Shown here: piece by piece, positions 12,710-31,400 of the stretch
Numbering within the stretch: position 1 is the stretch's first letter
Layout of the letters: every line of letters begins with the position of its first letter
Assembly: GCA_919903055.1 (NCBI GenBank)
Contig: CAKKSB010000068.1
Coordinates: 1 to 37,832, forward strand
Origin: Gammaproteobacteria bacterium
GTDB lineage: Bacteria; Pseudomonadota; Gammaproteobacteria; DRLM01
Direction: 5' to 3'
DNA: 37,832 bases
Program-made: the position numbers and the translations under genes
The notes under the pieces: model-generated
The model's database searches: none
Told to the model about the DNA's origin: nothing
What the model saw: the letters and a program-made list of their open reading frames with translations, nothing else

Positions 12710-12736
12710 TTGACATTTAAAAAAACTGTCCATAAT
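12710..12736 (+). promoter_or_regulatory. Candidate sigma-70 promoter of the surface-protein operon
   Basis: A perfect -35 TTGACA (12710-12715) is followed, 15 nt on, by CATAAT (12731-12736), five of six -10 bases. It lies in the AT-rich tract about 110 nt before the first surface-protein start. The 15-nt spacer is short, which could mean activator dependence or a different -10. Confidence 0.5.
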
Positions 12737-12794: not shown

Positions 12795-12818
12795 AACCTG
12801 TGAATGATCATTCAGGTT
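12795..12818. promoter_or_regulatory. 24-nt inverted repeat in the leader (operator or RNA hairpin)
   Basis: AACCTG (12795-12800) and CAGGTT (12813-12818) flank the perfect 10-bp palindrome AATGATCATT. It lies downstream of the candidate promoter and about 28 nt before the start codon. It could be a dimeric repressor site or an RNA hairpin. The CTG...CAG ends recall lux-type boxes, but the half-site spacing is 2 nt longer than in those. Confidence 0.45.
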
Positions 12819-12846: not shown

Positions 12847-13380
12847 ATGCTGTTTGTTGTATTGCGCGCGTGGAGCGGTATCGGAATCGTGTTGCTGACC
12901 GTCGGTGTCGTAAAGGCCGCCGATCCGCCCAGCGTTGTGGTCACGCTTTCCGCTCAAAAAATCATCGTGAGCGTCGAGGGCCGCGAGCGGCGGCTGCCGG
13001 CGGAACGGACGCGGCCCGGTGACATCGTCGAATACCGGGCGATGTACAAAAATGCCGGAAAATCCACGGTAAAAAATCTGGTGGCCACTTTGCCGGTTCC
13101 CGCGGCGGGGATGGAATATCTACCGCGTACCGCCGATCCCCATATCGTTCAAGCCAGCGTCGACGGCATTGCTTTCGATAACGTGCCGCTCAAACGCCGC
13201 ATCGTGCTGCCCGGCGGTAGGCAGGTATCGCACGACATCCCTTATTCAGAATACCGCTACCTGCGCTGGGAGCTTGGTGAATTACCGCCCGGAAAAAACA
13301 CCTCGGTAAGCGCACGCATGCGCGTCAATCCAGTAGAACCTCCACCCGTTACGCTCTCGACATCAGGAGATAAGCCATGA
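12847..13380 (+). CDS. Secreted single-domain DUF11-like protein (function unknown)
   Basis: 177 aa. A Sec signal peptide ends near VVKA before ADPPSVVV. The mature part is one small beta-sandwich of the DUF11/'conserved repeat' type: RPGDIVEYRAMYKNAGKSTV, VATLPVPAAGMEYLPRTADP and the closing LRWELGELPPGKNTSVSARM. Such domains are common in bacterial cell-surface proteins. No membrane anchor, lipobox or catalytic motif is visible, so it is probably periplasmic or exported. GGAAGG at 12835-12840 serves as ribosome-binding site. Its stop overlaps the next start by 4 nt (ATGA), which makes it the first gene of the surface operon. I do not recognise a named family beyond the repeat domain. Confidence 0.85.
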   Translation: MLFVVLRAWSGIGIVLLTVGVVKAADPPSVVVTLSAQKIIVSVEGRERRLPAERTRPGDIVEYRAMYKNAGKSTVKNLVATLPVPAAGMEYLPRTADPHIVQASVDGIAFDNVPLKRRIVLPGGRQVSHDIPYSEYRYLRWELGELPPGKNTSVSARMRVNPVEPPPVTLSTSGDKP

Positions 13381-16025
13381 TAGTCCATCATGCGTCGCGT
13401 CATCGTCTGCTTAAAGTGGTTTCAACGGGTGGAATCAATGCCGCCGCGCTGATCTCGATGTTGATGGTATTGATGATACTGGCGTTGCCGCGGGCGCAGG
13501 CCGCGCCGGCGGCCGGCAGCAGCATCGGCAATCAAGCTTCCGCCACGTATTCGGATGTTTCACTCGTTACCCGTACCGTCACGTCCAACACCGTGACTAC
13601 CGTCGTGCAGCAGGTGGCGAGCCTGAGCCTGACCGCCGGCGGTACGAAAACCGTCACGCCCGGCGGACAGGCGAGTTATCCGCACACCCTGGTCAACACC
13701 GGCAACGGCGGCGACAGTTTCACGTTGAGCACCGGCAACGCCGGCAGCATGACGTTTTCTTCGGTCGCGCTGTATGCCGACGCCAACGGTGACGGCGTTG
13801 CCGACAACGCAACCGCGATTACCAGCAGCGGCGAACTGGCGGCGGGCGGCGTCTTCAAATTCGTGGTGGTGGGCAATGCGCCGGGCACGGCGGTGGCGGG
13901 CAACACCAATACCTTGACGCTCACCGCCGCCAGCGTCTTCACACCCGCGGTCACCGCCTCGAACAGCGACGTCACCACGGTGACTAACAACGCGGTGATC
14001 AACGTCACCAAGTCGATCGACCTGAGCGCCGGCGCGTCGCCCAGCGGCCCGCGCACCGTCACCTTGACTTACACCAACACCGGCAACGCGACCGCCACCG
14101 CGCTGACGCTCACCGATCTCCTGCCTTCCGGCATGACTTACGTGGCCAGCAGCGCGCGCTGGAGCGCCGGCGGCGCCACCGTGCTCACCGACCTCAACGC
14201 CGCCGACAACCAGGGCGGCATCGTTTACGATTTCGGCGTCACGCTCGCCGGCCGCGTCACCGCGGTGATCGCGTCGGTCGCGCCCGGCGTCGCGGCGACG
14301 CTGACTTTCCAAGTCAACATCAACAGCGGCCTCGCGCCCGGCGCCAACGCGGCGACCGCCAACACCGCCGCCTTCGCCTATCACGACGGCAGCAGCCAGA
14401 TCGCCGCCACCAATACCAACACCGTGCAATTCGCCGTCGCGCGCGCCGCGGCGTTGGCCCTCACCGGCGCGACGGTGGCGAACGCCAGCCAGGGCAGCAC
14501 GGCGAGCTTCACCAATCTGCTCGCCAACAACGGCAACGGCGGCGACACCTTCGACATCACGCTCGGCGCCAGCACCTATCCGGCCGGCACTACCTTCACG
14601 CTGTATCAAGCCGACGGCGTCACGCCCTTGTCGGACAGCAACGGCAACGGCGTCGCCGACAGCGGGCCGCTGGCCGCGGGCACGAGTTACAACGTGATAC
14701 TCAAGGCGACGCTGCCGGCCGGCGCCACCGGCGGACCGTACAGCGTGCAATTGATCGCGACCTCGCTGGCCGATCCGACCAGGACCGCCACCGTCTCCGA
14801 CACCCTGACCACGATCACCGCCAATAGCGTCGATCTCACCAACACCAGCGCGGGCGTCGGCGCGCCCGGCCTCGGCGCGGGACCGGAAGCGGGAGCGGTG
14901 GTCACCGCCACCGTCGCGCCGGGCAACACCACCCGCTTCACCTTGTATGCGGCCAACGGCAGCTCGGTGGCCGACACCTTTAACTTGCAGGCGAGCACCG
15001 ACTCGAGCTTCGCCGCGCTGAGCCTGCCGGCAGGCTGGAGCGTCAGCTTCAAAAACGCCGGCGGCGCGGTTATCAGCAACAGCGGCGTGATCAACGGCGG
15101 CGCCAATAGCGTAATTTACGCCGACGTGACGGTGCCGGCCGGCACCGCGGCGGGCACCACGGATTTATATTTCCGCGCGCTGTCGCCCACCTCCGGCGCG
15201 GTTGATCGTCTGCACGACGCGGTCACCGTCAACACCATCCGCGGCCTCACGCTCACGCCGAATCAAAACGGCCAGATCTTTCCCGGTGGCACCGTCGTCT
15301 ACAGCCACACCCTCACCAACAACGGCAACGTGCTGGAAGGCGACGGCGTGGCCAGCAGCGTCACGCTCGCCACCGCCGACAGCGCGGCCGGCTTCAGCGC
15401 CGTGGTGTACTGGGACAAAAACAACGACGGCGTGCTCGACACCGCCGATCCGGTGCTCGCCGATCTCGCCGCGCTGACCGGCGGCAGCAACGGCGCGAGC
15501 ACCGCCGCCGGTCTCGCCCCCGGCGAAAGCGCGACGCTGTTCGTCAAAGTGTTCGCCGCGGGCGGCGCGGCGATCGGCGCGATCGACGCGACCACCACCA
15601 CGCTGAGCGTGAGCGGCGCCATCAACGGCGCCGCGGCGCCGGCCAACGCGACCGCCGTCGCCAGCTCGACGGTGATCGCCGGCCAGGTCGGCCTGATCAA
15701 ATTGCAGGCGCTGGACGCGGCTTGCGACGGCACGCCGGACGCCGCTTACGCGCCGACCAATCTCACCAGCGGCGCCGTGCCCGGCGCCTGCGTGCGTTAT
15801 CAAGTCACCGCCACCAACGTCGGCGTGGTCGACGTCACCAGCGTGGTGGTGAGCGACGCCACGCCGGCCAATACCACTTACACCGCGACCAGTGCGCTGG
15901 CGAGCAGCGTCGGCACGGTCAGCGCGCCGGCCGACGGCGCGGCGGGCACGTTGCAGGCCACCGTCGGCACGCTCGCGCCGGGACAGTCCGCGGTCATCAC
16001 TTTCGGGGTGAGGATCGCGCCCTGA
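13377..16025 (+). CDS. Large secreted multi-domain DUF11-repeat protein (function unknown)
   Basis: 882 aa. A long basic N-region and hydrophobic stretch (ISMLMVLMILALPRAQA) make a signal peptide cleaved near residue 42. The mature N-terminus APAAGSSIGNQASATYSD is repeated in the next gene product. Then come several tandem beta-sandwich repeats of ~110-150 residues, each with phrases such as GGQASYPHTLVNTGNGGDSF, LTLTDLLPSGMTYVASSARW and GGTVVYSHTLTNNGNVLEGD. Three Asp/Asn-rich calcium-type loops lie at DNA 13779-13808, 14634-14663 and 15414-15443. The last repeat ends AVITFGVRIAP at the C-terminus, so there is no sorting signal, barrel or anchor. Composition is rich in Ala, Gly, Thr, Asn and almost free of Cys and Lys. 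It overlaps the upstream gene by 4 nt. A surface or extracellular fibre-like role is inferred. Confidence 0.85.
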   Translation: MIVHHASRHRLLKVVSTGGINAAALISMLMVLMILALPRAQAAPAAGSSIGNQASATYSDVSLVTRTVTSNTVTTVVQQVASLSLTAGGTKTVTPGGQASYPHTLVNTGNGGDSFTLSTGNAGSMTFSSVALYADANGDGVADNATAITSSGELAAGGVFKFVVVGNAPGTAVAGNTNTLTLTAASVFTPAVTASNSDVTTVTNNAVINVTKSIDLSAGASPSGPRTVTLTYTNTGNATATALTLTDLLPSGMTYVASSARWSAGGATVLTDLNAADNQGGIVYDFGVTLAGRVTAVIASVAPGVAATLTFQVNINSGLAPGANAATANTAAFAYHDGSSQIAATNTNTVQFAVARAAALALTGATVANASQGSTASFTNLLANNGNGGDTFDITLGASTYPAGTTFTLYQADGVTPLSDSNGNGVADSGPLAAGTSYNVILKATLPAGATGGPYSVQLIATSLADPTRTATVSDTLTTITANSVDLTNTSAGVGAPGLGAGPEAGAVVTATVAPGNTTRFTLYAANGSSVADTFNLQASTDSSFAALSLPAGWSVSFKNAGGAVISNSGVINGGANSVIYADVTVPAGTAAGTTDLYFRALSPTSGAVDRLHDAVTVNTIRGLTLTPNQNGQIFPGGTVVYSHTLTNNGNVLEGDGVASSVTLATADSAAGFSAVVYWDKNNDGVLDTADPVLADLAALTGGSNGASTAAGLAPGESATLFVKVFAAGGAAIGAIDATTTTLSVSGAINGAAAPANATAVASSTVIAGQVGLIKLQALDAACDGTPDAAYAPTNLTSGAVPGACVRYQVTATNVGVVDVTSVVVSDATPANTTYTATSALASSVGTVSAPADGAAGTLQATVGTLAPGQSAVITFGVRIAP

Positions 16026-16124
16026 GCGCAAGCCCGCTTCCGCCGGTTGCGACGCGAGCGCGCAGCCGGGCGCGGCAGCGCTGGTTCGACGCGGATACGG
16101 CGGCCGGTTGAAGGCGGAAGTGCG

Positions 16125-19100
16125 ATGTACAACGCTTTCAAAAACGCACGGTGTCGAAGGGGCGCGGCCGGCCTGCTCATGCTGACGGGGATGATGCCCG
16201 GCCACGCCGCGCCGCCGGCCGGCAGCGTGATCGGCAACTGGGCGACGATGGCGTATTTCGATCCGGCCAGCGGACTCAATTCCAATCTACGATCCAACAC
16301 CGTCAACGTCATCGTCCAACCGCTGGAAGCGCTGACCCTGACGCGGAATCAAGACATCGTGCACCGCCCCGGCAGCACCTTCCATCTGGCGCATCGCCTC
16401 ATCAACACCGGCAACACGCCGGCGGATTATCTGCTGAGCGTCGCCAATCTCGCCGGCGATCACTATGATCTCGCCGACCTCGGCGTGGTGTACGACGGCA
16501 ACGCCAACGGCATCGCCGACAGCGGCGAGCCCGCGCTCGGCAACGGCGCCGATCTGCGCCTCGCCGCCGGCCAGTGGGCGGATCTGGTGGTCACCGGCAC
16601 CATTCCCGGCACGACGCCGCTGGCCAACGCCGCCGCCCTGCAACTCACCGCGACCAGCCGGCTGCAACAGATCAGCGCCGCCAATACCGATACCGTCACC
16701 ACCCATGACGCGGCCGCGCTGCACCTTGTCACCGCCGCGTCCACCCTCACCCCGGCCCGCGACGAAATGGTGACCTTCACCCTCCGCGCCAGCAACGTCG
16801 GCGGCCTGCACGCGACGGGTATGCCGATAACCTTGAACGGCGCGCCGGCGTCCATGATCGTGATCTACAATGACGTGCCGGCCAACACCACGCTGGTGGA
16901 GCTGAGCGGGCCGGCCAACGGCATACCGCTTTATCATCTGCTGGGCGATCCGCCCATGCTGTTCAGCTCGGCGGCGCCCGCCGACCTCGGCCGGGTGGAC
17001 GCGGTGGGTTACGGTTTCGCCGGTTTCATGGCGGGACAGACCAGCGTCGTCAATCTCAAGGTCAAGATCAACAGCCTCGCCAGCGGCGCGCTGTCCCATC
17101 AGGCGCAGGTGTTTTATACCGACGGCGTCCACCCCGCGGTCATCGGCGCCGAGTCCAACCAGGTCATGCTCGGCATGGCCGCGCTGGCGCCGGCCATCAA
17201 ATATTTCAGAAATGGCAATTTCGATACCGAGCAAGCGGCGACGCGGGTCGGCATGCCTTTATACGTGCAGGCCGAAGCCGCCGCCTGCAACACCGCCGGT
17301 CCGGCCATCGAAACCATCGACATCACGCTTTCGTCGGCGCTGACGACGGACACCGAGGTCTTCGCCGCCACCGAAACCGCGGCCAATTCCGGCCAGTTCC
17401 GCGTCACCGGCGACGTGATGACGGCCGACGGCGATCTTCAGCCGGCGATCAGCGGCAACGGCATACTCGAAGTGAAAAAAGGCGACACCCTCACCGCCAG
17501 CATTCAAGGTTGCGGCGCGACGATGACCCAGACCGCCATCCTGATCGACCCGGCCGGCATCGTCTTCGACAGCAAGACCAATGCCCCGCTGAGCGGCGCG
17601 ACGGTGAGTCTGATCGACGTCGCCGGCGCCGCCAACGGCGGCAACCCCGGCGGCGCGGCGCGGGTGTTCGACATGGACGGCGTGACGGCGGCGCCGAGCA
17701 CGGTGGTGACCGGCGCCGACGGTTTCTATCAATTTCCGCTGGTGGGCGCGAGCACCTATCGCCTGCTGGTGACGCCGCCGGGCGCTTACCGTTTTCCCTC
17801 GACGCTGGCGGCGGGACTGTTACCGGCCGGTCGGCGCATCGATGTCGCGGGTTCCTACGGCGGCGTGTTCCCGGTCAATGAAATCACGGGCGCGGTGATG
17901 ATCGACATCCCGCTCGACGCGGGCGGCGAGGGCTTGTTCGTGCAAAAGACCGCGTCGCGCCGCACGGCGGAGATCGCCGAGTTCGTCGATTACACCGTCA
18001 AGATCAAAAACGTCAGCGGCGCGGCGCTGGCGGGCATCACCTTGTCCGACGCCCTGCCCGCCGGTTTCGCCTACCAGCCCGGCACGGCGCGCTTGAACGG
18101 CGCCGGGGTCGCCGATCCCGCCGGCGGCCGCGGCCCGGCGCTGCGCTTCGCGGTCGGCAATCTCGGCGACGGCGTCACCGCGACGCTGAGTTACCGCGTG
18201 CGCATCGGCCCCGGCGCCTTGCAGGGCGACGGCGTCAACCGCGCCCAGGCCGGCAGCGCGCTGCCCTTGCCCAAACTCAGCAACCTCGCCACCGCCGAAG
18301 TGAAAGTGCAGGGCGGCGTGTTCAGCGACCGCGGTTATCTGCTCGGCAAGGTCTACGCCGACTGCAACGGCAACCGCATACAGGATACCGGCGAAGCGGG
18401 CCTGCCCGGCGTGCGGCTGTATCTCGAAGACGGCAGTTTCGTGATCGCCGACGGCGACGGCAAATACAGTTTTTACGGACTCAGTCCACGCACCCACGTG
18501 CTCAAGCTCGACACCACCACCCTGCCCGCCGGCGCGAGACTCGCCGTGCTCGCCAACCGCAACGCCGGCGACGCCGGCAGCCGCTTCGTCGATCTCAAAC
18601 ACGGCGAATTGCACAAAGCCGATTTCGCGGTGGACGGCTGCGACGAGGCGCTGGCCGCGGCGATAACGCTGCGCAAGCGCAGCGTGGCGGGCGATGAACT
18701 GGCGCGCGGCCTGAAAACCGAGATGACCGCCGACGGCCAGGCCGCCGCGCTCGGCGATGTGCGGGCCTTGCCGGCGAGCGGTGTGCTCGGCGGCGAGACG
18801 CCGGCGGCCTTGCCCGCCACGGCGGAGAATGATGCCGTAACGCCGCCGACCGCTGTCGCGGCCCGCGCCGCGCCCGCGCCGGATGCGCCGCCGCTCGCGG
18901 CCGACGCGGATGAACAACCGGGATTCATCGGCCTGGGCGACCGCGACGTGTTGCCGATGGCGCAGACCAATCTGCGCATCAAAGGTCCGGCGCGCGCCGC
19001 GTTGAGTCTGCTGGTGAACGGCGTAGCGGTGCCGGACGATCGCATCGGCACGCGGCTGGTCCTCGAAGACCGCCGGATCGAAGTGCGCGAATACATCGGC

Positions 19101-21953
19101 CTCGCGCTGCGGCCCGGCGAAAATGTCCTCACCGTCAGCGCCGCCGACGCGTTCGGCAATCCGCGCGGCAGTCACGCCATCACCGTGATCGCGCCCGGTG
19201 AATTGGCGCGGCTGGTGATCGACGTTCCGCAAGCCAAGATGACGGCGGACGGCAGCAGCCTGGGCAGGCTGCGGCTGCGGCTGGTCGACGGCCATAACGT
19301 GCCGGTCACCGCGCGCACGGCGGTGACGCTGGAGACCAGTCTCGGCCTGTGGCAAATCGACGATCTCGACAAACGCGAGCCCGCCGTGCAGACCTTCGTC
19401 GAAGGCGGTCAGGCCGAGTTCGCGCTGCGCGCGCCGGCGGAGCCCGGCGAGGCCCGAGTGCGGATAAGCAGCGGCAGGCTGCGGGCGGAAACTCACATCA
19501 CCTTCCTGCCGCAACTGCGGCCGCTGCTGGCGGTCGGCGTCATCGAAGGTGCTTTCAATCTGCGCAAACTCGACAGCGGCGCGCTGGTGCCGGCGCGCGC
19601 GCAGGATAATTTCGAGCGGGAATTGCGCCAGTTTTCGCAGGAAAACGGCAAAGGCCAGGCCGGCGCGCGCGCCGCGTTATTCCTGAAAGGTAAGATCAAG
19701 GGTGAATATCTGCTGACGCTCGGTTACGACTCCGACAAGGAAACCCAGGAACGCCTGTTTCGCGACATCCAGCCCGATCAGTTTTATCCGGTGTACGGCG
19801 ACGCCGCGGTGAAAGGTTTCGATGCGCAATCCACCGGCCGGCTCTACGTGCGGGTGGACAAGCAACGGTCGTATCTACTGTACGGCGATTACACCACGCA
19901 GACCGCCGTTCAGCCGGCGCGCGGCCTCAGCGCCTATAATCGCAGCCTCAACGGCCTCAAACACCATTACGAAAATTCACGCATCGCCGCCAACGTCTTC
20001 GCCAGCCGCGACAGCACCCGCCAGGTGGTGGAAGAACTGCCCGCCAACGGCACCTCGGGCCCTTATACCTTGAGCAACGACAATGCGATCGAGAACAGCG
20101 AGCGCATCGAGATCATCACCCGTGATCGCAACCAGTCGGCGGTGATTTTGAAAAGCGTGCCGCAGACCCGCTTCAGCGATTACGAGATCGAGGCCTTTAC
20201 CGGCCGGATATTATTTAGGGCGCCGGTGCCCGGCGTCGATGCCGACCTCAATCCGAATTCGATACGCGTGACGTATGAAGTGGATCAGGGCGGCGCTGCA
20301 TTCTGGGTGACGGGCATGGATGCCCAGGTCAAACTCAACGGCCGCGTCGAAGTCGGCGGCAGTTGGATCGACGACCGGAATCCGCAAGACCCGGCGACCT
20401 TGCAGAGCGTCAACGCCACGCTGCGTCTCGCCGAGCAGACCGTGGTGATGGGCGAACTGGTGCGCACCGACAAGCTCAGCGTCGGCGACGGTCACGGCGA
20501 GCGCATCGAAGTGCGCCACGACGGCGAGAATCTGCAAGCGACGCTGTTCGCCGGCCGCACCGACGCGGAGTTCGACAATCCCTCGGCGAGTTTGAGCAAG
20601 GGCCGCGCCGAAGCCGGCGCGCGCGCCTCCTATAAGATCGACGAGCGCACCCGCCTGGTCGGCGAAGCGATCCGCACCGAGGACGTGGTGAGCGACGACC
20701 GCCGCGACGGCGTGATGCTCGGCGCCGAGCGCAGCTTCGACAATAATCTGCGGCTCGAAGCCGGCGTGCGCCACGCCCGCGAACACAGCGCGGCGGCCGA
20801 CATCGACTTTACCAGTCTGCGCGCCAAACTGTCCGCGGCGTTGCCCGGCCTGCCCGCGGCTTCGGTATACGGCGAGGCCGAACGCGAGATCGACGACGAT
20901 AACGGCGTGCTCGCCGCCGGCGGTGAATACCGTTTCACCGACCGCGGCCGTCTGTACGCACGGCACGAGTTCATTTCCTCGCTCGCCGGCCCGTACGCGC
21001 TCAACGCCGATCAACAGCAGAACACCAGCGTACTCGGCATTGACACCGCTTACATGCAAGACGGCCAGGCCTACAGCGAATACCGGGTGCGCGAGGCGAT
21101 CAGCGGCCGCGAGGGCCAGGCGGCGATCGGCCTGCGCAATCTGTGGCGGATCGCCGAAGGCACGCGGCTCAACACCAGCATCGAGCGCATCCACGCGGTG
21201 GCGGGCGGCGCGGACAATGAATCGACCGCGCTCACCGGCGCCATCGAATACACCCGCAATCCGCTGTGGAAAGGCACGGCGCGCCTCGAACTCTACAACA
21301 GCGATCTCAGCCGCAGTCTGCTCAACAGTCTGGGCCTCGCCTACAAGCTCGGCGACGACTGGACCTTGCTCGGCAAGACCATCCTTAGCATCACCGACAA
21401 CAGAAGTCCCGGTGCGGGCCAGCGTTTATTGAGCCGTCTCCAACTCGGTCTGGCCTATCGCGAGACCGCGCGCAATGTTTGGAGCGGCCTCTCGCGCTAC
21501 GAATACAAACGCGAGGACGACGACAGTAATCCCGCCCTGGCGGTGCGGCGCGATGTGCATATCGTCTCACTGCATGCGAACTATCAGCCGAGCAATCCGC
21601 TGATCTTCACCGCGCGTTACGCCGCCAAGCGGGCGACCGAGGACAGCAACGCGATCGAGAGCCGCGCCAGCGCGCAGTTGCTGAGCGGCCGGGCGACGTA
21701 CGACATCGACAAGCGCTGGGACGCCGGTGTCATCATCAGCGGCCTGTTCAGCGGCGGCTACGCGAGCACGCAGTACGGCATGGGCGCGGAGATCGGCCGG
21801 GTGCTTCAGGAAAATCTCTGGATGTCGGTCGGCTACAATTTTTTCGGTTACAGCGACGAGGATTTGACCGGCCAGGACTACACCAACCGCGGCCCTTATT
21901 TGCGGCTGCGCTTCAAGTTCGATGAAAATCTGTTCAGCGGAAGAGCGATGTGA
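16125..21953 (+). CDS. Giant surface protein: DUF11/SdrD-B/Ig-like domains plus predicted C-terminal outer-membrane beta-barrel
   Basis: 1942 aa from the ATG at 16125. The frame is open to 16047, but the signal peptide (RRGAAGLLMLTGMMPGHA) starts here. Order: the APPAGSVIGNWATMAYFD module shared with the upstream protein and DUF11-like repeats (~30-400); a carboxypeptidase-regulatory-like domain (~475-600); a DUF11 domain (~604-735); an SdrD-B-like domain with GKVYADCNGNRIQDTGEAGL (~738-820); an Ala/Pro linker; Ig-like domains including an invasin-type Big-1-like stretch (~1025-1125). From ~1127 to the end, ~815 residues alternate polar and hydrophobic residues with many short turns (YLLTLGYDSDKETQERLF, LYVRVDKQRSYLLYGDYTTQ), as in transmembrane beta-barrels. 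The penultimate strand GPYLRLRFKFDENLF fits this, though the last residue is Met rather than Phe. It probably anchors the operon's products in the outer membrane. Confidence 0.85.
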   Translation: MYNAFKNARCRRGAAGLLMLTGMMPGHAAPPAGSVIGNWATMAYFDPASGLNSNLRSNTVNVIVQPLEALTLTRNQDIVHRPGSTFHLAHRLINTGNTPADYLLSVANLAGDHYDLADLGVVYDGNANGIADSGEPALGNGADLRLAAGQWADLVVTGTIPGTTPLANAAALQLTATSRLQQISAANTDTVTTHDAAALHLVTAASTLTPARDEMVTFTLRASNVGGLHATGMPITLNGAPASMIVIYNDVPANTTLVELSGPANGIPLYHLLGDPPMLFSSAAPADLGRVDAVGYGFAGFMAGQTSVVNLKVKINSLASGALSHQAQVFYTDGVHPAVIGAESNQVMLGMAALAPAIKYFRNGNFDTEQAATRVGMPLYVQAEAAACNTAGPAIETIDITLSSALTTDTEVFAATETAANSGQFRVTGDVMTADGDLQPAISGNGILEVKKGDTLTASIQGCGATMTQTAILIDPAGIVFDSKTNAPLSGATVSLIDVAGAANGGNPGGAARVFDMDGVTAAPSTVVTGADGFYQFPLVGASTYRLLVTPPGAYRFPSTLAAGLLPAGRRIDVAGSYGGVFPVNEITGAVMIDIPLDAGGEGLFVQKTASRRTAEIAEFVDYTVKIKNVSGAALAGITLSDALPAGFAYQPGTARLNGAGVADPAGGRGPALRFAVGNLGDGVTATLSYRVRIGPGALQGDGVNRAQAGSALPLPKLSNLATAEVKVQGGVFSDRGYLLGKVYADCNGNRIQDTGEAGLPGVRLYLEDGSFVIADGDGKYSFYGLSPRTHVLKLDTTTLPAGARLAVLANRNAGDAGSRFVDLKHGELHKADFAVDGCDEALAAAITLRKRSVAGDELARGLKTEMTADGQAAALGDVRALPASGVLGGETPAALPATAENDAVTPPTAVAARAAPAPDAPPLAADADEQPGFIGLGDRDVLPMAQTNLRIKGPARAALSLLVNGVAVPDDRIGTRLVLEDRRIEVREYIGLALRPGENVLTVSAADAFGNPRGSHAITVIAPGELARLVIDVPQAKMTADGSSLGRLRLRLVDGHNVPVTARTAVTLETSLGLWQIDDLDKREPAVQTFVEGGQAEFALRAPAEPGEARVRISSGRLRAETHITFLPQLRPLLAVGVIEGAFNLRKLDSGALVPARAQDNFERELRQFSQENGKGQAGARAALFLKGKIKGEYLLTLGYDSDKETQERLFRDIQPDQFYPVYGDAAVKGFDAQSTGRLYVRVDKQRSYLLYGDYTTQTAVQPARGLSAYNRSLNGLKHHYENSRIAANVFASRDSTRQVVEELPANGTSGPYTLSNDNAIENSERIEIITRDRNQSAVILKSVPQTRFSDYEIEAFTGRILFRAPVPGVDADLNPNSIRVTYEVDQGGAAFWVTGMDAQVKLNGRVEVGGSWIDDRNPQDPATLQSVNATLRLAEQTVVMGELVRTDKLSVGDGHGERIEVRHDGENLQATLFAGRTDAEFDNPSASLSKGRAEAGARASYKIDERTRLVGEAIRTEDVVSDDRRDGVMLGAERSFDNNLRLEAGVRHAREHSAAADIDFTSLRAKLSAALPGLPAASVYGEAEREIDDDNGVLAAGGEYRFTDRGRLYARHEFISSLAGPYALNADQQQNTSVLGIDTAYMQDGQAYSEYRVREAISGREGQAAIGLRNLWRIAEGTRLNTSIERIHAVAGGADNESTALTGAIEYTRNPLWKGTARLELYNSDLSRSLLNSLGLAYKLGDDWTLLGKTILSITDNRSPGAGQRLLSRLQLGLAYRETARNVWSGLSRYEYKREDDDSNPALAVRRDVHIVSLHANYQPSNPLIFTARYAAKRATEDSNAIESRASAQLLSGRATYDIDKRWDAGVIISGLFSGGYASTQYGMGAEIGRVLQENLWMSVGYNFFGYSDEDLTGQDYTNRGPYLRLRFKFDENLFSGRAM

Positions 21954-21954
21954 C

Positions 21955-24705
21955 ATGCGTATCACGCTACTGATAAGACTGTGCGCGCTGATGCTGTGCT
22001 GCGGCGGGCTGGCGGCCATGGCGCCGGCGCAGGCCGCGTGCACTGGCGGCGCCTGCCTGTCCGCCGGGCCGCGGCTCGCCAGCGTCGATTCCACGCGCGG
22101 CGCGCTGCTCAATGCCTTGCTCGGCAATTTGCTCGGCAGCAGCGTGAATCTGAGCGTCGCCGACTGGAATAATCTCGCGCAAGGCGACGTCAATCTCGTG
22201 AGTTATCTCAATGCGCTGCAAACGTCGTTGAACGTTTCATCGCCGGCCGCCGCGCTCAGCGCCGACGCCACGCTCGCGCAATTGATTTCGACGATGGCCG
22301 CCGCCGCGCAGGCCGACGGCGATACCGCCACCGCCGCCGCGCTCGCTAATCTGCAGCCGCAGGTCTCCGCCCTTGCCGCCACCGTGCGCCTCGGCGATCT
22401 GCTGACGGTGACCACGCCCAGCGGCGCCTTGTCGGACGTCAATCTCAACGCGCTCGATCTCGTCACCGGCGGCATCCAGCTCTACAATTACGACAACGTG
22501 CTGACCACGCCCACGCCGGTGACGATATCCGGCGGCGCCATCGGCCTCGCCGGCGTGATCAATTCGGTGCAGCTCTACGCGCAGGTGATCGAGCCGCCGG
22601 TGATGATTTGCGGTCCGGCCGGTACGCAATTCCACACCGCGGCGATCCGCGTCAAGCTCAACCTGGATCTGGTGGACTTGGGCCTGGGTACCTCGGCCTT
22701 GACCCTATTACCGGGTGTGACCAGCGCGGCGCTGACCCTGGCGCAACTCGAACTCTATGTCGAGGTCGCCCGCGCGCAAGGCACGCTCGCCACCGTCAAC
22801 GCGCTGGCCGACGCCGTGATCGTGCAGGCTACGCCGGGGGTCGCCGATCTTTACCTCGGCAGTATCAGCGACGCGAACTTTTTCAATCGTAGCCGCGTGC
22901 TGAACACCGCCACCGATCTCGGCTTCAGCACCATCGGCGCGCTCACCATCAACGCGCTCACCGTCAATCTTCAAGTGAAGAGCGCTGCGCGCGGCGAGGC
23001 ACCCTTCAGCAGCAGTCTGAGTTTCAGCGGGCCGTATCCGCAGACCCGCAGCGCGAGCACCAGCGCCGCCTTCATCGCCAACCTCGCCGGCACGTTGGTG
23101 AACAACCTCAGTGTGAGCGTGAGTCCCAGCCTGGGCTTGCTCGACGCGGTGGTGTTGCCCGCCGTCAAGACCCTGGTCGGCACGGCCTTGACGCCGGTAT
23201 TGACCACGCTATTGACCGGCCTGGTCGATCCTCTGCTCGAACTGCTCGGCATTCGCCTCGGTGAAGTGGACGTGACGGTCTACGGCGTCACCCGGTCCTG
23301 TTCGATTGCGGGAACGGTGTATCTCGACGCGAATCACAACGCCACACTTGACGGCGAGGCCGGCACCGGCCTCACGCTGTACGCCAAAGCCATAGCGTCC
23401 TCCTCGCCCGGCGGACCGGCGCTGCTGGCGGCGACTGTGGATCCGGCCAGCGGCGCTTACAGCCTGGCCGGCATCGGCGGCGGCAGCTACACCGTGATCG
23501 TCGATACCAACAACACTCTGAGCGACGTCGCGCCCACGGCGCCGGCGGGCTGGGTCGGCACGGAGAGTCCGAGCCTCGCGCGTGTTAATACGACCCTCAC
23601 CTTCAACGATGTCGGCGCTCAGAATTTCGGCCTCTATCACGGCAGCAAACTCAGCGGCAGGGTGTTCAAGGACAACGGCGCCGGCGGCGGCACGCCCAAC
23701 AACGCGGTGCAGGACGGCGGCGAAACCGGTCTTGCCAACGTAGTGATAAAAATCACCGATAATGGCGGCGGCGTCATCCACGACAGCACCGCGAGCGGCG
23801 GTGACGGCAACTACACGCTGTGGATACCGGCCGCCGCCGACGCGAGCATCGTGAAGGTGGTGGAAATCAATGCCGGCGGTTACATTTCCGTCGGCGGCGC
23901 GGCCGGCAATACCGGCGGCGGTTATGATCGCGCCGGCGATACTTTGAGCTTCACCAATGCGGCGGGCGGCAGCTATACCGGCGTTAATTTCGCCGATGTG
24001 CCGGACCTCCGTTTTCTCACCGACGGCCGCCAGACCGCCGTGCCGGGCGGCGTGGTGTTTTATCCGCACCAATTCGTCGCCGGCAGTGGCGGCCAGCTCA
24101 CTTTCAGCGCCGCCGGCACGGCCAACCCGAACGAAGCCGGCTGGAACCAGGTGCTGTATCTCGACGGTAATTGCAGCGGCGCGCTCGATAGCGGCGAGTT
24201 GCCGATAGCGGCCGTGTTGAACGTCGGCGCCGATCAGCAAGTGTGTATCGTGGTGAAGGTCGGCGTACCGGTAAACGCCGCGTACAACGCGCAATACCCG
24301 CTCACGGTGAGCGCGAGTTTCACTTACATCAATGCCAGCCCCGCCTTGACCGGCACGCAAAGCCACAGCGATCTCACCACCGTGAGCAATCCCGCCGAGG
24401 CGGGATTGAAACTCACCAAAACCGTGGACAAGAACGTGGCGCAATCCGGCGAGGTGATCACGTACACCGTCAGCTACATCAATAACAGCAGCGCGGCCTT
24501 GAGCAATCTCAAAATCAACGACTCGACGCCGGCCTACACCGTGTTCAACGCGGCCTCTTGCGGCGCGCTGCCCGCCGGTCTCACCGTTTGCACACTGACG
24601 GCGCAACCCGCCGCCGGCGCCGCCGGCGCCATCGAATGGACGTTCACCGGCACATTGATTTCCGGTGGCAGCGGGAATGTCGGTTTCAGCGTCATCTTGG
24701 AATAA
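21955..24705 (+). CDS. Secreted protein with Tad_C-like N-terminal region, two SdrD-B-like domains and a terminal DUF11 domain
   Basis: 916 aa from the ATG at 21955, one base after the preceding stop; GGAAGAG at 21939-21945 serves as ribosome-binding site. The signal peptide ends in APAQA before ACTGGACL. Residues ~28-445 resemble, by phrase order, the Tad_C region of TadG-like Flp pilus proteins: SLSVADWNNLA-type start, LQLYNYDNVL-like segment, VIEPPVMICGPAGTQFHTAA, then LLELLGIRLGEVDVTVYGV before a Cys. Two SdrD-B-like modules follow (GTVYLDANHNATLDGEAGTG ~455; SGRVFKDNGAGGGTPNNAVQ ~566). The last ~100 residues are a DUF11 domain (LKLTKTVDKNVAQSGEVITY). No barrel or sorting signal is present. 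It closes the operon, with a hairpin at 24748-24773 behind it. The Tad_C assignment is from memory of the family and needs a profile search. Confidence 0.82.
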   Translation: MRITLLIRLCALMLCCGGLAAMAPAQAACTGGACLSAGPRLASVDSTRGALLNALLGNLLGSSVNLSVADWNNLAQGDVNLVSYLNALQTSLNVSSPAAALSADATLAQLISTMAAAAQADGDTATAAALANLQPQVSALAATVRLGDLLTVTTPSGALSDVNLNALDLVTGGIQLYNYDNVLTTPTPVTISGGAIGLAGVINSVQLYAQVIEPPVMICGPAGTQFHTAAIRVKLNLDLVDLGLGTSALTLLPGVTSAALTLAQLELYVEVARAQGTLATVNALADAVIVQATPGVADLYLGSISDANFFNRSRVLNTATDLGFSTIGALTINALTVNLQVKSAARGEAPFSSSLSFSGPYPQTRSASTSAAFIANLAGTLVNNLSVSVSPSLGLLDAVVLPAVKTLVGTALTPVLTTLLTGLVDPLLELLGIRLGEVDVTVYGVTRSCSIAGTVYLDANHNATLDGEAGTGLTLYAKAIASSSPGGPALLAATVDPASGAYSLAGIGGGSYTVIVDTNNTLSDVAPTAPAGWVGTESPSLARVNTTLTFNDVGAQNFGLYHGSKLSGRVFKDNGAGGGTPNNAVQDGGETGLANVVIKITDNGGGVIHDSTASGGDGNYTLWIPAAADASIVKVVEINAGGYISVGGAAGNTGGGYDRAGDTLSFTNAAGGSYTGVNFADVPDLRFLTDGRQTAVPGGVVFYPHQFVAGSGGQLTFSAAGTANPNEAGWNQVLYLDGNCSGALDSGELPIAAVLNVGADQQVCIVVKVGVPVNAAYNAQYPLTVSASFTYINASPALTGTQSHSDLTTVSNPAEAGLKLTKTVDKNVAQSGEVITYTVSYINNSSAALSNLKINDSTPAYTVFNAASCGALPAGLTVCTLTAQPAAGAAGAIEWTFTGTLISGGSGNVGFSVILE

Positions 24706-24864: not shown

Positions 24865-25416
24865 CTACTCACCAAATTCCGCTTTATCCCGATCTCCGTC
24901 TGACGCGCCACACCAATCCAACGGGTAAACCCCGTTTGTCGCGTATTTGTGAAATGTTGAATAAGGCCAATCCGACACCCGGCTCACCAGCCCGTGTTTG
25001 ACGGGATTCCAATGTATATAATCGACATGCCTCAAGTAATCGCCTTCATCTCGGATTAGATGCTCCCAATAACGCCTTTGCCACAAGTTGGTTTCCTTGC
25101 GCTTCAACCGAGATTCGCTCAGCGATTCCGGCCGGGTTAATGGGTTGCCACATGTCCGGCTGACATGCCGTTTGATCATTCCCCAACGCTTGGCAAAATC
25201 CGCATCCCCTTCGGGCAAGGTCCAGATGCAATGAAGGTGGTCCGGTAACAATACCCATGCCTGGATTTGAAAGGGAAATCTTTCGCGCGTTTTTTGTATA
25301 CCCTCTCTCAATGCTTGACGCAGGTTTTCTTCCGTCAACACCGATTGTCTGCGGTAGGTGTTTACGGTGAAGAAGTAAGTTCCTCCTTGCGTATTGGCGC
25401 GCCGGTATTCAGGCAT
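24865..25416 (-). CDS. REP-associated tyrosine transposase (RAYT, Y1 HUH family)
   Basis: 183 aa from the ATG at 25416, beginning MPEYRRANTQGGTYFFTVNT. The HUH metal motif is HLH in LLPDHLHCIWTLPEGDADF, and the catalytic-tyrosine helix is in RHVDYIHWNPVKHGLVSRV. Other RAYT hallmarks are ETNLWQRRYWEHLIRDEGDY and the closing DWPYSTFHKYATNGVYPLDW. These single-strand nucleases act on REP hairpins. Here inverted REP-like copies lie 5 nt beyond the stop and about 20 nt upstream of the start. The frame is open upstream to 25896 and runs in frame through a cassette-gene fragment, so a longer chimeric product is possible. All key residues seem present, so it may be active. Confidence 0.92.
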   Translation of the reverse strand: MPEYRRANTQGGTYFFTVNTYRRQSVLTEENLRQALREGIQKTRERFPFQIQAWVLLPDHLHCIWTLPEGDADFAKRWGMIKRHVSRTCGNPLTRPESLSESRLKRKETNLWQRRYWEHLIRDEGDYLRHVDYIHWNPVKHGLVSRVSDWPYSTFHKYATNGVYPLDWCGASDGDRDKAEFGE

Positions 25417-25434
25417 AGGTTCATTTACCCATGT

Positions 25435-25459
25435 ATTGGTGCGTGGGACGCACCCTACG
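25435..25459 (-). repeat. REP-like hairpin element, right copy (inverted)
   Basis: ATTGGTGCGTGGGACGCACC followed by CTACG is the reverse complement of the left copy, differing by one C in a run. Together with 24835-24860 it defines a ~625-bp REP-RAYT-REP unit that interrupts the adjacent gene remnant. Confidence 0.8.
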
Positions 25460-25692
25460 CTTGCTGAACCAAGTGCGAATTCAGAATCTATTTGTGTAGG
25501 CCCTTTAACTGCTGCTCTCACAGCCTTGGCCTTTTCGAATGCATCTGCTGCGGTAGCACATGCATCGATTTCCGGTGACGCTAAAGCCGGAAACTCAATT
25601 CCCTCAACAAGTTCGAATCCCAAACCATTCAGAAGATCAGAGAGATTTCTTCTCTCCAAACCTGTCTTTTGAATTTCGATAGCCCATCTCAC
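25460..25692 (-). pseudogene. N-terminal remnant of an unknown gene, cut off by the REP-RAYT unit
   Basis: From a GTG at 25690-25692 the minus strand reads about 78 codons: MRWAIEIQKTGLERRNLSDL, then LLNGLGFELVEGIEFPALAS, then PEIDACATAADAFEKAKAVR, then a GPTQIDSEFALGS end. The protein then stops making sense at the REP boundary and the frame continues into the RAYT. Codon use and phrase quality suggest a real gene. I see no matching 3' part left of the REP-RAYT unit, so it is truncated, not merely interrupted. The gene's function is not recognised. The start lies about 6 nt downstream (minus direction) of an attC-like remnant, as expected for a cassette gene. Confidence 0.65.
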
Positions 25693-25697
25693 ATGTG

Positions 25698-25738
25698 TGT
25701 CCCGTTTTCTGTCGGCTGGATGCGATTGTTGGAAGGCG
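25698..25738 (-). other. Partial attC-like site after the 266-aa gene
   Basis: On the minus strand, 4 nt after the stop, TTCCAACAATCGCATCCAGC leads into CGAC. This agrees closely with the conserved R''-L'' side of integron attC sites (YAACAAxTCGxTCxAGCsGA, recalled consensus) with a one-base shift. It is then broken by AGAAAACGGGACA (25698-25710 on the plus strand as its complement), the same 13 bases that end the inverted-repeat insert at 26621. No R' half is seen. It is a remnant of an attC, not a complete one. Confidence 0.5.
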
Positions 25739-26539
25739 TTACGCGAACACCAGCACGAGCCCAACGATACTCGCAATTGACGCGACGGCAGCAAACAATG
25801 TCCAGCCCCAATGCTCGGTGACAAGCTCTGCAATGGCTTGTGGATGAATGCCGCGAGCCTCCCACCATGAAGCATTGGTCTTGAGGGTTCCATCAAGCGT
25901 ACGACCGAACAGGTTCGCCAAGATGTCCACCTTTCTGAGGGTGGACTGATGCAGTTTCACGAACTCGCCGTTTTCAAAGGCTGCCGCTTCATCTTTTCCA
26001 ACCAAGAAGCTTTTGTCTGTGATTTTGTTGATGTTCACGATGCTTTCAAGGCGGGGGTGGCCAGCGTACCCGACGCCGTAGATGCTGATTAAAGCGCGCG
26101 CCAAATCAATTTTTCGTTCTTCTGGCAGCCTCGAAGGGGGCTGCCCGCCGAGAATCTTGTGTCTGTGCTCTATCGCCTGAAATCCATAATTGATGTCTCT
26201 CATGTTCCAGTGCATCCATGTGCAGAGGCTGTTCCCCTGTAGAAAATCACCAAACTCGTCCAACATTTCCTTTTCTAGTTGGTCGTAGTAGTTGGCTATC
26301 TGGTCTAGGGGAATTTTCTTTAGCTCCGCGACCTTGTGAATGGAGAACGATTCCGTTTGGCCTGAGCCAAGGTTGCGAACCGCGATAGACGTAACTCTGG
26401 GCGTAGATCCCTCTGGGCGGTCGAAGAAGCTTTCACATGAGTAGTGAACGACTACGACATGATCTTTTCGGGCGTCTATGTCATGCAGTCGCCTCAAGGT
26501 TTCCTTTCGGCTTCTCAGTCGTCGCAGCGTGTCCCCCAC
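25739..26539 (-). CDS. Unknown protein with C-terminal membrane helix (probable cassette gene)
   Basis: 266 aa from a GTG at 26539 with AGGAGAGG just upstream. The N-terminal ~110 residues have alternating strands (HVVVVHYSCESFF, VTSIAVRNLGSG, ESFSIHKVAELK) and a helix with WMHWNMRDINYGFQAIEHRH. This order recalls an RNase H-like/DEDD exonuclease fold, but the acidic metal ligands are not clear. A middle helical part includes IDLARALISIYGVGYAGHPR and VKLHQSTLRKVDILANLFGR. The last ~20 residues (WTLFAAVASIASIVGLVLVF) form one membrane helix. I do not recognise a named family. It lies between two attC-like sites on the minus strand with lower GC than the housekeeping genes, which suggests acquisition as a gene cassette; a defence effector is one possibility. 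Confidence 0.8.
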   Translation of the reverse strand: MGDTLRRLRSRKETLRRLHDIDARKDHVVVVHYSCESFFDRPEGSTPRVTSIAVRNLGSGQTESFSIHKVAELKKIPLDQIANYYDQLEKEMLDEFGDFLQGNSLCTWMHWNMRDINYGFQAIEHRHKILGGQPPSRLPEERKIDLARALISIYGVGYAGHPRLESIVNINKITDKSFLVGKDEAAAFENGEFVKLHQSTLRKVDILANLFGRTLDGTLKTNASWWEARGIHPQAIAELVTEHWGWTLFAAVASIASIVGLVLVFA

Positions 26540-27119: not shown

Positions 27120-28043
27120 CTACTTAAGACCGTAGTATTTGAGTAAAGCCTCTTTAACGACGTCGGATGCGACTGCAACCCCCATCTTCCAAGTGCCGGA
27201 CGCGGCTTTCTTGAGGTTTTCAACGAACCAGGTGCGAACGCGAGGCCCCATTGGTTCGGCGCTGCTATCTGGATTTTCAGATGCCGCGAGACGCGCAAGT
27301 TCTTGAGCATCTTCTTCCGCCATGCCGGACCCTGTTAGAAACTGCGCCAAGCTATTTGCATCATGCGGCGCCACTGCCACTTGAATCGTAGCTCCATCGC
27401 CAGTGGCTGCGATCGACGTGAAGTTTCCGTAGATGATTTGCTGCGCAATTTGCGTAGCTGCTGCAGAACTAGGCGCTGACGGCAAAGCCCCCGGGCCAAT
27501 TGTGACCGCTGCGGCATCCGGAACAGACTTCTCAAGTTCCAGAGTCAGTTCGAGAACGCGACTCCGCACCGCATGGCGTATAGCCGCAAGTGATGAGCGT
27601 GCGATACGCCCAGTTACCGAGTTGCATGCATAGTCCGGATAGACTTTGCCCTGAAGCAGAAGGATGAGGTCGGCAGCGTTTATTCCCAGATCGCCACCTT
27701 TCTCGGCTGTACCTAGTAGATCGTCGACGGCAGCGATGCTCTCACGCATCTCGTACCGCACCCAATGCTCTCCGGCGAATTTCTTAACCAAGTACGGTGA
27801 GATAGGGGCGTTGTTGATCCCAGACCCAAAGGGTCCAGAGAAGCTGGCTGTGTAGGAGACGGTAATGAAACGATAGTCGGGCAACTCGGCATCCCGTGGG
27901 TAGCCCTCTGATTCGTGCCGTACCCAATCGGCGAGTGGCTGACTTCCGATCCGAGCGGCCAAAAGCCGAAGCTTAAGAAGGATCGGACCAAGATCCGATT
28001 CGTCTTGAAGTACCGCAGCTTGGATTTCGTGAAGTAGGCTCAC
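27120..28043 (-). CDS. AbiTii-domain protein (putative abortive-infection/antiphage)
   Basis: 307 aa from a GTG at 28043, chosen because GGGAGC lies just upstream and the family begins MSLLHEIQ; an upstream TTG at 28067 lies inside the preceding repeat. Residues ~1-190 match the AbiTii pattern by eye: SLLHEIQAAVLQDESDLGPI, LRLLAARIGSQPLADWVRHE, SEGYPRDAELPDYRFI and later helices with DLILLLQGKVYPDYACNSVT. AbiTii-type domains occur in phage-resistance proteins. A linker (ALPSAPSSAAATQIAQQIIY) leads to a C-terminal part with ATGDGATIQVAVAPHDANSL and a helical tail (ASDVVKEALLKYYGLK). That arrangement resembles other AbiTii proteins, but its role is uncertain. It is probably the first visible cassette gene of the array. 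Mechanism is not known to me. Confidence 0.82.
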   Translation of the reverse strand: MSLLHEIQAAVLQDESDLGPILLKLRLLAARIGSQPLADWVRHESEGYPRDAELPDYRFITVSYTASFSGPFGSGINNAPISPYLVKKFAGEHWVRYEMRESIAAVDDLLGTAEKGGDLGINAADLILLLQGKVYPDYACNSVTGRIARSSLAAIRHAVRSRVLELTLELEKSVPDAAAVTIGPGALPSAPSSAAATQIAQQIIYGNFTSIAATGDGATIQVAVAPHDANSLAQFLTGSGMAEEDAQELARLAASENPDSSAEPMGPRVRTWFVENLKKAASGTWKMGVAVASDVVKEALLKYYGLK

Positions 28044-28061
28044 ATATGCTCCCTTGATGAC

Positions 28062-28105
28062 GCCCAACTTGAAATAGACATCCTAATTGACGCCTTATAA
28101 TGCGT
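28062..28105 (-). other. Weak attC-like site upstream of the AbiTii-domain gene
   Basis: On the minus strand the segment ends TTCAAGTTGGGC, a perfect GTTRRRY core 18 nt before the AbiTii start, and begins GCATTATAAGGCGTC. The two ends pair poorly, so it is the least convincing of the four sites. The same TTGGGCGTCAT string recurs inverted after the gene (27091-27101 on plus). Confidence 0.3.
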
Positions 28106-28485
28106 CATCCTGTGTTCTTAATTATTTCCCATGACCAAAGTATCTTAATTGCAATAAGCAAATCAATTTTAGAATGTCCTATTTAGCTAGGACTAATAAG
28201 CCAGACAGTTCTCTCGAACCGCGTAATGCCCGTATCCGGCGACACTCCATTCAACTGGGCTTACAGTTTTTTCGTGAAGACGACGCCGACTACAAACCAT
28301 GTTCATCACGCGTGCGCGCGCCGCGCGTTTCACCTAAACCACCACCCAGAAAAGAACCCAAGCCACCAAGCTGTCCGTCGCTCAGGGTTTTTTCCTCGGA
28401 TTAAAGCCGCTCCCCCTCCCTCCCGATAACCGCACCATCGGCGCTGGATGCCGATTGATTGGGATGTCTTGAGGAGTGCGGTTCC
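28106..28485. other. 380-nt spacer between cassette region and protease gene
   Basis: The first 90 nt are AT-rich. After that GC rises and short open frames (28174-28404 and 28226-28429) are compositional, with Pro/Arg/Lys-rich translations and no good ribosome-binding site. No integrase gene or attI site is visible. The spacer must hold the promoter of the protease gene. GAGGAG at 28471-28476 is its likely ribosome-binding site. Confidence 0.5.
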
Positions 28486-31400
28486 ATGGTGCGGGACGTG
28501 AGCATGACTCCGCTACGGCCATGGAGGCCTTTCCACCGGGTAGGGGGAAAGATGCGCGGTTACGCCGCCATCGCAGCGGTATTTTCAATATTAATGGCTG
28601 ACTGGCCGGGTTTCGCCGAGGTGCGGGCCGCGTCGTCGGCGGCTGTCGATTCGGGGGTGCGTTCCCTTACTCAAATCGAATACGCCGGACGTAAGCCGAC
28701 GCCGCTGGCGCGCGGTTTGACGGGCGTGGCCAACGATGCCGCCGCGGTGCAATTCGTCCAAGGCGCGGTCCATCTCGATCCCCGTTATCTGCCGGTCTTG
28801 CGCGGCGACGAAGGCCATGTGCTGCTGCAATTCCGGGGGCCGCTCGACGTGGAACAGCAACGGCGTCTGACCGGACACGGTGTGGCCCTGCTCGAATACA
28901 TTCCTCACAACACGTGGAAGGCGCGGGTGCGCAGCGCGTCGCTGGCGGCCGTGCGCGGTCTGGATTTCGTCCAGGCGGTCGGCTCGATTTATCCGGTCGA
29001 TAAATTGCCGGCGGCGATCCTCGCCGGAGATTTTCATCCCCGCTCGCTCAATGCCGACGGCAGTTTGAGTCTCGAAGTGTATTTCCATCCCGGTGTCGAT
29101 TACGCCCGCGCGGCGGTCTTGCTGGCGGGGATCGGCGCCGCGCCGGTCCAGGCCGATTTTTTGAGCGGCCGGCATCTGACGGTGCGCCTGCCGCAGAATC
29201 GGGTGATCGACCTGTTGGCCCTCGACAGCGTGGCGTGGGTGGAGGATCGCGAGGCGCCCAAGGCCGGTGAAAACGTGGGGGCGGCCGCTTTGTCGCACGT
29301 GGACAGTTTGTGGCGGGCGCCGTTGAATCTCAGCGGCGCCGGCGTGGCGATCGGTATGTGGGATGAGGGTTTGGTGGATGTCAGTCATCCCGACTTGGCG
29401 GGTCATGTGGCTACCGGCGAGGCGGGGCAGGTGGTAGGCCATGCCACCCATGTGGCCGGCACCTTGTCCGGTTCGGGCGCCGGCAATAGCAGCGCGCGGG
29501 GCATGGCGCCCGCCGCCGCGGTGTGGTCCTATGATTACTTCGGCGACCCGGTGGCGGAACACACCGCCGCCCGCAAGGACCGCGGGATCGCGGTGGCTAA
29601 TAATTCCTGGGGTTATCTGGCCGGCTGGCAGTCGAATTATTACAACGACGGGTATTGGGTGTGGTTTGGCGGCGCGGCCAACCGGACTGATCCGGATTTC
29701 GGCGGTTATTCCTCGCTGACCCGCAATTGGGACCGGCTGGTGTACGACACCGAACTGGTGGTGGTGAAGTCGGCGGGGAATGACCGCAGCGAGAGCGGGG
29801 CCGCGGGCCGCGCCCATCGCCACTACGGCGACAGCACGACCTTGTATTACGATCACCACGACGCCGACGGCGATTACCGCAGCATCGGCCAGATCGCCAC
29901 CGCCAAGAACGTCATCACCGTGGGCGCGGTGGATAATGCCGGCGCCATGACCGCGTACAGCGCCTGGGGTCCGACCAACGACGGCCGGCTCAAGCCGGAT
30001 GTGGTGGCCAAGGGCCAGGATGTCTATTCCACTTATCTTGCGAGCGGTTACACCTCATTAAATGGCACCTCGATGGCCACGCCTACCGTCAGCGGCGCCA
30101 TCGCCCTGCTGGTGGAGAGATACCGCAAAGTCACCGGCAGCCTGGCGCCGCCGCCGGCCCATCTGATCCGCGCTTTGGTGGCCAACACCGCCGCCGATCT
30201 CGGCACGCCGGGACCGGATTACGCCTATGGCTGGGGTTTGCTCGATGCGCAGGCCGCCCTCAAGGTAATCGACGCCGACAGCGGCGCCGGCCGCCGTTTC
30301 ATCACCGCCAGCCTGTTGCAGGGCACGGCGCAGCGCTACGATATCGACGTCGCCGCTAATGCCGGGCCTCTCAAAATCAGCCTGGCCTGGACCGATCCGC
30401 CGGGTTCTCCCGGTGCCGCCGCCGCGCTGGTGAATGATTTGGATATCCGGCTGATCGGCCCCGCCGGGACGGTGTACTACCCTTACAGCCTGGCTGGATT
30501 GCGCGACCCCGCCGCGCCGGCCACCGCCCTCGGCCCCAATAGCGTGGATAATCTCGAGCAAGTGCTGGTCGCGTCGCCGCAGGCCGGGCTGTGGCAGGTG
30601 GAGGTCCGCGGCAGTCGAGTGCAGGGTGTGCAATCCTATTCCCTGGTGAACAACCTCGACATGCCGACCGATAAAACCCCGCCCGGTGGCGGTTATGTAG
30701 TCGTCAACCAAGGCGGCGAATACGCCCTCTCGCCTAAAATCATGGTGTTTTTGGCGGGATACGACAATCAGGGCGTGACCGGTTATTATCTGTCGGAAAA
30801 TCCGGCGCGGCCGGGTTTGAGCCAATTCACCGCGGCGGATACGGTGGCCCGCTTAAGCCTCAGCGTGCCGTATACCTTGTCCGCCGGCGACGGCAGTAAG
30901 ACACTTTATCTGTGGTTGCGCGACGCCTCCGGCAACATCAGCGAGGCGGCGTCGGTCACGGTGAAACTGGACACCCAGCCGCCGGATGCGCCCCGGCTCA
31001 GCGTGCAGGCCGGAACGCAAGGCGGACGGCCGCAATGGGAATGGACGCCGGGCAATGGCATGGGCGTTTTCCGCTACAAGCTCAATGACTCGCGTTTAAA
31101 TATCGGTGCCGAGGAAACCCGGAACCTCGCCTTCCTGCCCGGCGCGCCCTTGAGTCCGGGCATGCACATTTTGTACGTGCAGGAGCGGGATGAGGCGGGG
31201 CAGTGGTCGGCCGTGAGTCAAATGAGTATTACGGTCACCGCCCAGGAATGGGATTCGCCGCAACTCGGCGCGGGCGGCGTACCGCTGGCGCCGAGTCTGC
31301 GCGCCTTGACCCCGGTGAACGATCCTTTACCGCGCTGGTTGTGGAATTCGATAAACGGCGGCGGTATTTTCCGGTTACGGCTGAATGAGGCCGATCTCAG

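Follow-up and report, generated by a model that had tools for sequence, protein, structure and literature searches.

Split DUF11 domains in a four-gene locus with a predicted outer-membrane barrel: a candidate fibre system of Gram-negative bacteria

The analysed window, that is, the whole 37,832-nt stretch of gammaproteobacterial DNA, contains four closely packed genes (g1 to g4), each product of which starts with a segment that resembles a signal peptide on inspection by eye. Only g3 was thought to possess a membrane anchor in the preliminary description, which suggested that it forms an outer-membrane base, with the other proteins attached to the base or to one another to give a fibre, sheath or adhesion layer. 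As judged from sequence, a DUF11 domain is split across the g2, g3 and g4 subunits, and this split, an addition to the earlier barrel-base proposal, suggests a mechanism of assembly.

Gene composition and the g3 barrel

The genes and their main regions are as follows.

12847–13380, plus strand: g1, 177 aa, predicted exported protein; its DUF11-like body ends after the second-to-last strand
13377–16025, plus strand: g2, 882 aa, shaft-like; combines a donor strand with an acceptor domain
16125–21953, plus strand: g3, predicted exported protein with a donor strand, Ig-like, DUF11 and SdrD_B domains and a predicted C-terminal outer-membrane barrel
19497–21950, plus strand: barrel region of g3, C-terminal ~815 aa
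21955–24705, plus strand: g4, acceptor-only protein, proposed tip, starting at ATG 21955
21955–23334, within g4: N-terminal head, ~450 aa; the C-terminal half of g4 consists of SdrD_B and a truncated DUF11 domain

The reading frames and their packing agree with the preliminary description: g1 and g2 overlap by 4 nt, g2 and g3 are separated by 99 nt, and g3 and g4, by 1 nt. The frame of g3 is open from 16047, ATG at 16125 being the likely start. The claim that all four proteins use DUF11-type repeats holds for g2, g3 and g4, where DUF11 scores above the Pfam cut-off, but in g1 only an NCBIfam repeat is seen, below the cut-off (21.0 vs. 24 bits). A match to SdrD_B is also present in g3, together with a weak match to Invasin_D3 ahead of the barrel.

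No plus-strand sigma-70-type site was produced by a consensus scan, so the single candidate promoter suggested earlier is not supported; the TTGACA at 12710 is followed by a CATAAT at a distance of just 15 nt. A search for a riboswitch upstream of g1 gave no Rfam match at E≤1. The g1 leader carries a 24-nt near-perfect dyad, AACCTGTGAATGATCATTCAGGTT (12795–12818), which has no second copy in the genome; the sequence around it shows no conservation at the other loci.

The C-terminal 928 residues of g3 were modelled with a mean pLDDT of 70.5 and pTM of 0.50. In this model the C-terminal ~815 residues, for which the preliminary description had left soluble domains as the other outcome, form a barrel: the Ig-like domain is followed by long antiparallel strands, ~36–40 by our own count, with a low-confidence, plug-like insert near model residues 295–363. 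The 50 matches listed in a PDB fold search are barrel proteins of the outer membrane without exception, among them SlpA, TonB-dependent receptors, LptD, the Mtr complex and FimD; their TM-scores lie below 0.3, which makes the outer-membrane barrel class clear, but not the family. No autotransporter or intimin/invasin barrel family matches g3 in Pfam at E≤1. The prediction for the C-terminus of g3 is an outer-membrane barrel built from a great many strands.

Donor strands and acceptor domains

The reference structure is 9IFR, a CLIPPER domain of the DUF11 fibrillar adhesin B9T28_05395 from Acinetobacter silvestris, with isopeptide residues Lys715, Asp748 and Asn806 (PMC12617251). In a complete domain of this type, Lys and Asp are located in the body, and Asn, near the last strand. 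The regions of the locus relevant to this layout are:

13503–13616, plus strand: g2 donor strand, residues 43–80, at the mature N-terminus; codon of Asn52 at 13530–13532
15681–16022, plus strand: g2 acceptor, truncated C-terminal DUF11 domain without the last strand; Lys775 at 15699–15701, Asp827 at 15855–15857
16209–16325, plus strand: g3 donor strand at the mature N-terminus; Asn codon at 16236–16238
17937–18257, plus strand: complete internal DUF11 domain of g3, aligning with 9IFR including Lys, Asp and Asn
24406–24702, plus strand: g4 acceptor, truncated C-terminal DUF11 domain; Lys at 24418–24420, Asp at 24520–24522

While Lys, Asp and Asn all lie within the one internal domain of g3 when it is aligned to 9IFR, the C-terminal DUF11 domains of g2 and g4 break off just ahead of the last strand, with Lys and Asp present and Asn absent, and the mature N-termini of g2 and g3 correspond to the missing strand, with Asn. 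The three residues thus do not occur together within the terminal domain of either g2 or g4, Asn being on the donor of another chain.

The split is seen with an HMM of the complete internal DUF11 domain of g2 (153 positions, six sequences): the C-terminus of g2 covers positions 11–111, the protein stopping two residues further on, and its mature N-terminus covers positions 113–152. One or both split ends are matched likewise in L024, L027, L042, L036, L035, L037, L040 and L026, with modest single E-values (~1e-4 to 0.05). The N-termini of g2 and g3 align over the full length and share the motif G-[ST]-x-I-x-N-x-A-x-x-x-[YF], whose alternation is what a strand that buries one of its faces should show. 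Foldseek aligned 77 columns of the g2 acceptor with 9IFR (target length 123 residues), consistent with a partial domain. For AlphaFold, acceptor and donor were joined by continuing the g2 frame past its stop codon into g3, the two genes being in frame; the acceptor was modelled with pLDDT 70–84, and the donor, with pLDDT ~31–38 and no confident placement.

Conservation across genomes

As a check of its proposal, the preliminary description had suggested looking for the four-gene order in other genomes, and the order does recur. With the barrel part as query, a scan of a single genome from each species yielded 18 relatives, and tblastn of each of the four proteins against the relatives' loci and whole-genome relatives revealed the order g1-g2-g3-g4 in 12 further loci (L024, L026, L027, L031, L032, L035, L036, L037, L038, L040, L041 and L042). 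The hosts include Burkholderiales, the alphaproteobacterium Acidocella and one MAG labelled Verrucomicrobiaceae (L024), which may reflect horizontal transfer or misbinning. Rivibacter subsaxonicus and Curvibacter gracilis are carriers from the environment that are in culture. The g2 of L024 is the closest copy among the related loci fetched (65% identity).

Among 369 genomes sampled across the class, 50 match the barrel profile and 31 the g1 profile, both being present in 28 of these 31. By our own reading of the two profile-match tables, g1 precedes the barrel gene by ~4.6–9.3 kb, in the same orientation, in all 22 genomes where they clearly share a contig. In a phylum sample g1 was found in 37 of 399 genomes. 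The four-gene set is present in dozens of bacteria, far beyond chance. Another arrangement is seen in L028, L030 and L039, where a DUF11 protein of ~2800–3100 aa adjoins a separate barrel protein of ~1100 aa, and neither donor nor acceptor was called.

A further 20 loci were picked solely by profiles of g1 and the barrel. Most of their barrel genes score near the N-terminus against a donor HMM built from the first locus set (with which L084 overlaps), and 19 of 20 have the donor motif, counting motifs seen by eye and two frame-split genes; the barrel protein of L075 is the sole one without it. Typing of ORFs by donor (D) and acceptor (A) calls gives an acceptor-like g1, one or two DA subunits and a D-only barrel protein, often with A-only proteins near this set; as the acceptor HMM was partly trained on the new shaft genes, independence there is limited to the A-only calls. 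At the source locus, calls are limited to g2 (D and A), g3 (D) and g4 (A), g1 being too divergent for the acceptor HMM. None of 310 minus-strand control ORFs was called D or A, and neither were the three other DUF11 proteins of the host genome.

The distribution of the reactive residues follows the typing. Both Lys and Asp are retained in all 12 g4 acceptors and each in 11 of 13 g2 acceptors, with L024 and L027 lacking both; such joint loss is expected if the two residues react. Shaft-like genes of the 20 further loci have Asp in 25/25 and Lys in 21/25 cases. The donor Asn is found in 14/14 g2 and 10/14 g3 proteins and, in the further loci, in 25/26 shaft-like and 19/20 barrel genes (some by eye). 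In g1, Asp is present in only 3 of 34 proteins and Lys in 11 of 34. L045 and L084 come from one genome and hence are not independent in these counts. As the acceptor supplies Lys and Asp and the donor supplies Asn, covalent locking is expected at most joints, and Lys-Asn bonds between subunits are likely, as far as residue patterns tell; at some joints a covalent bond is impossible, since four of 14 g3 donors have no Asn and some acceptors have no Lys.

Possible assembly, related systems and flanking genes

We consider it probable that the locus encodes an outer-membrane-anchored fibre, whose subunits are joined by donor-strand complementation of split DUF11/CLIPPER domains. The N-terminal strand of g2 would complete the unfinished C-terminal domain of the following subunit, so that g2 could form a chain. 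Having a donor only and a large barrel, g3 would be the base, whereas g4, with an acceptor alone, can only end the chain, and its variable head may act as a tip adhesin displayed on the surface. The small incomplete domain of g1, acceptor-like and usually without the catalytic Asp, is most likely that of a cap or chaperone, which would reversibly cap donor strands in the periplasm. At most joints, a spontaneous isopeptide bond between the acceptor Lys, assisted by its Asp, and the donor Asn might then lock the fibre. The earlier suggestion of a barrel base with the others as a fibre is the best reading, with the split DUF11 domains as its proposed link; nothing speaks separately for a sheath or a layer.

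The g4 heads differ between homologues while the acceptor end is kept; the head is replaced in most homologues, several of which have SpaA- or SdrD-type stalk domains, and this variation is what a tip adhesin would be expected to show. The head studied here (~450 aa) has no Pfam match and, among the loci compared, is common to L024 and L027 only. A likeness of the head to TadG-type pilus proteins was considered and discarded: Pfam gave it no support, and the head has no relative elsewhere in the genome.

Three other readings were weighed against this fibre. It is rather unlikely that donor strands join the subunits as proposed but with no isopeptide bond at the joints. Some DUF11 domains indeed have no such bond (PMC12617251), and the split is kept in two g2 acceptors without Lys and Asp, in four g3 donors without Asn, and in some shaft genes without Lys; on the other hand, the retention of Lys and Asp in all g4 and nearly all g2 acceptors, their joint loss and the invariant Asn of the g2 donors argue for a reaction. 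That the subunits are not joined at all, the N-terminal strand completing a domain of its own chain, either the first or the C-terminal one, in four separate surface proteins with only the operon in common, would agree with the lack of confident donor-acceptor docking by AlphaFold, but self-completion cannot serve a g4 acceptor without a donor or a g3 donor without an acceptor, and the gene order is conserved and the genes co-occur, making this reading improbable.

We regard as very improbable that g3 is mainly an usher-like secretion channel for g2 and g4 and not the base of a fibre. The very many predicted strands and the low-confidence plug-like insert do suggest a wide channel, and FimD and LptD are among the fold matches; these matches are, however, unspecific given their TM-scores, and g3 has the donor strand of a shaft protein, needless for a mere channel. 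Moreover, both roles can coexist, as in autotransporters. Cargo of a T11SS was dropped as an explanation, the relevant paper naming DUF11 in passing only.

Chaperone-usher pili are donor-strand fibres. The proposed fibre would work much as they do (FimA/FimC/FimD): its Ig-like subunits look incomplete in sequence, an N-terminal strand is the putative donor, g4 the proposed tip adhesin and g3 the predicted outer-membrane barrel, and a small Ig-like gene may act as helper. It differs in multi-domain subunits, possible covalent joints and no usher family in the genome. Usher (PF00577) had no match in the host genome or in g3, with E. coli as a positive control, and sortase (PF04203) had none in the host genome, with three positive control genomes; at 75% genome completeness, both absences are weak evidence. 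PapD-like chaperone and fimbrial pilin families had no Pfam match in g1–g4 at E≤1. Autotransporters and intimin/invasin similarly join an Ig-like passenger to a barrel in one chain, but g3 matches no such barrel family and has far more predicted strands.

The archaeal thread Saci_0406 is assembled head-to-tail without an usher; donor strands join its subunits, and an isopeptide bond has been proposed (PMC9715654). The candidate fibre would share these features, the bond being proposed in both; the thread, however, is archaeal, has one main subunit and no outer-membrane barrel, and its bond would run from the amino group of the N-terminal Asp to an Asn in another subunit, whereas the residue pattern here points to Lys-Asn. 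TasA is another donor-strand fibre (PMC9674648). B9T28_05395 is likewise a Gram-negative surface protein with a DUF11 Lys-Asp-Asn isopeptide triad, to which the intact g3 domain aligns, but has a complete domain in one chain and an OmpA-like anchor, in place of a split domain and a large barrel. Pairs of the SpyTag/SpyCatcher type are isopeptide domains split by engineers (PMC6539128, PMC5487036). There too, a strand with a reactive residue is set apart from the remainder of the domain; here the split is natural and found in many genomes, and the covalent rejoining is putative.

In the open-licence literature we found nothing combining DUF11, donor strand and isopeptide bond, one paper, on another fibre, combining DUF11 and donor strand, no account of a DUF11 domain that is split by nature and, in line with the preliminary description, no named system of such composition. 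More tentatively, and with some doubt, the locus may represent a widespread, unnamed class of Gram-negative fibres, covalent without sortase, in which a split CLIPPER domain acts as tag and catcher with a Lys-Asn lock and a barrel anchor. If true, this class would unite donor-strand joining and spontaneous isopeptide cross-links, each known separately, provide a natural counterpart to the engineered tag/catcher proteins, and account for many “DUF11 domain-containing” genes without an assigned role; the assembly model, with its reactive residues already named, would be directly testable.

Neither flank looks like a part of the fibre system. Upstream of g1 are mreB, rodA, rlpA-like, dacC-like, lipB and lipA genes; downstream of g4 are Y1-transposase-like, AbiTii-like and subtilase genes. 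The first of the latter (24865–25896, minus strand), directly downstream of g4, is of the Y1/IS200 type, adjoins a short repeat-like GTAGGGTGCGT stretch at ~24838, and looks like a REP-associated transposase. The second (27120–28067, minus strand) encodes a protein with an AbiTii-type abortive infection domain (Pfam E-value 2.4e-39), possibly a phage defence gene. The third (28459–31974, plus strand) encodes a predicted secreted subtilase with a Gly-rich C-terminal tail, a hydrophobic stretch and an Arg cluster, reminiscent of a sorting signal; the genome's other DUF11 proteins (L001, L003) finish in tails of this kind.
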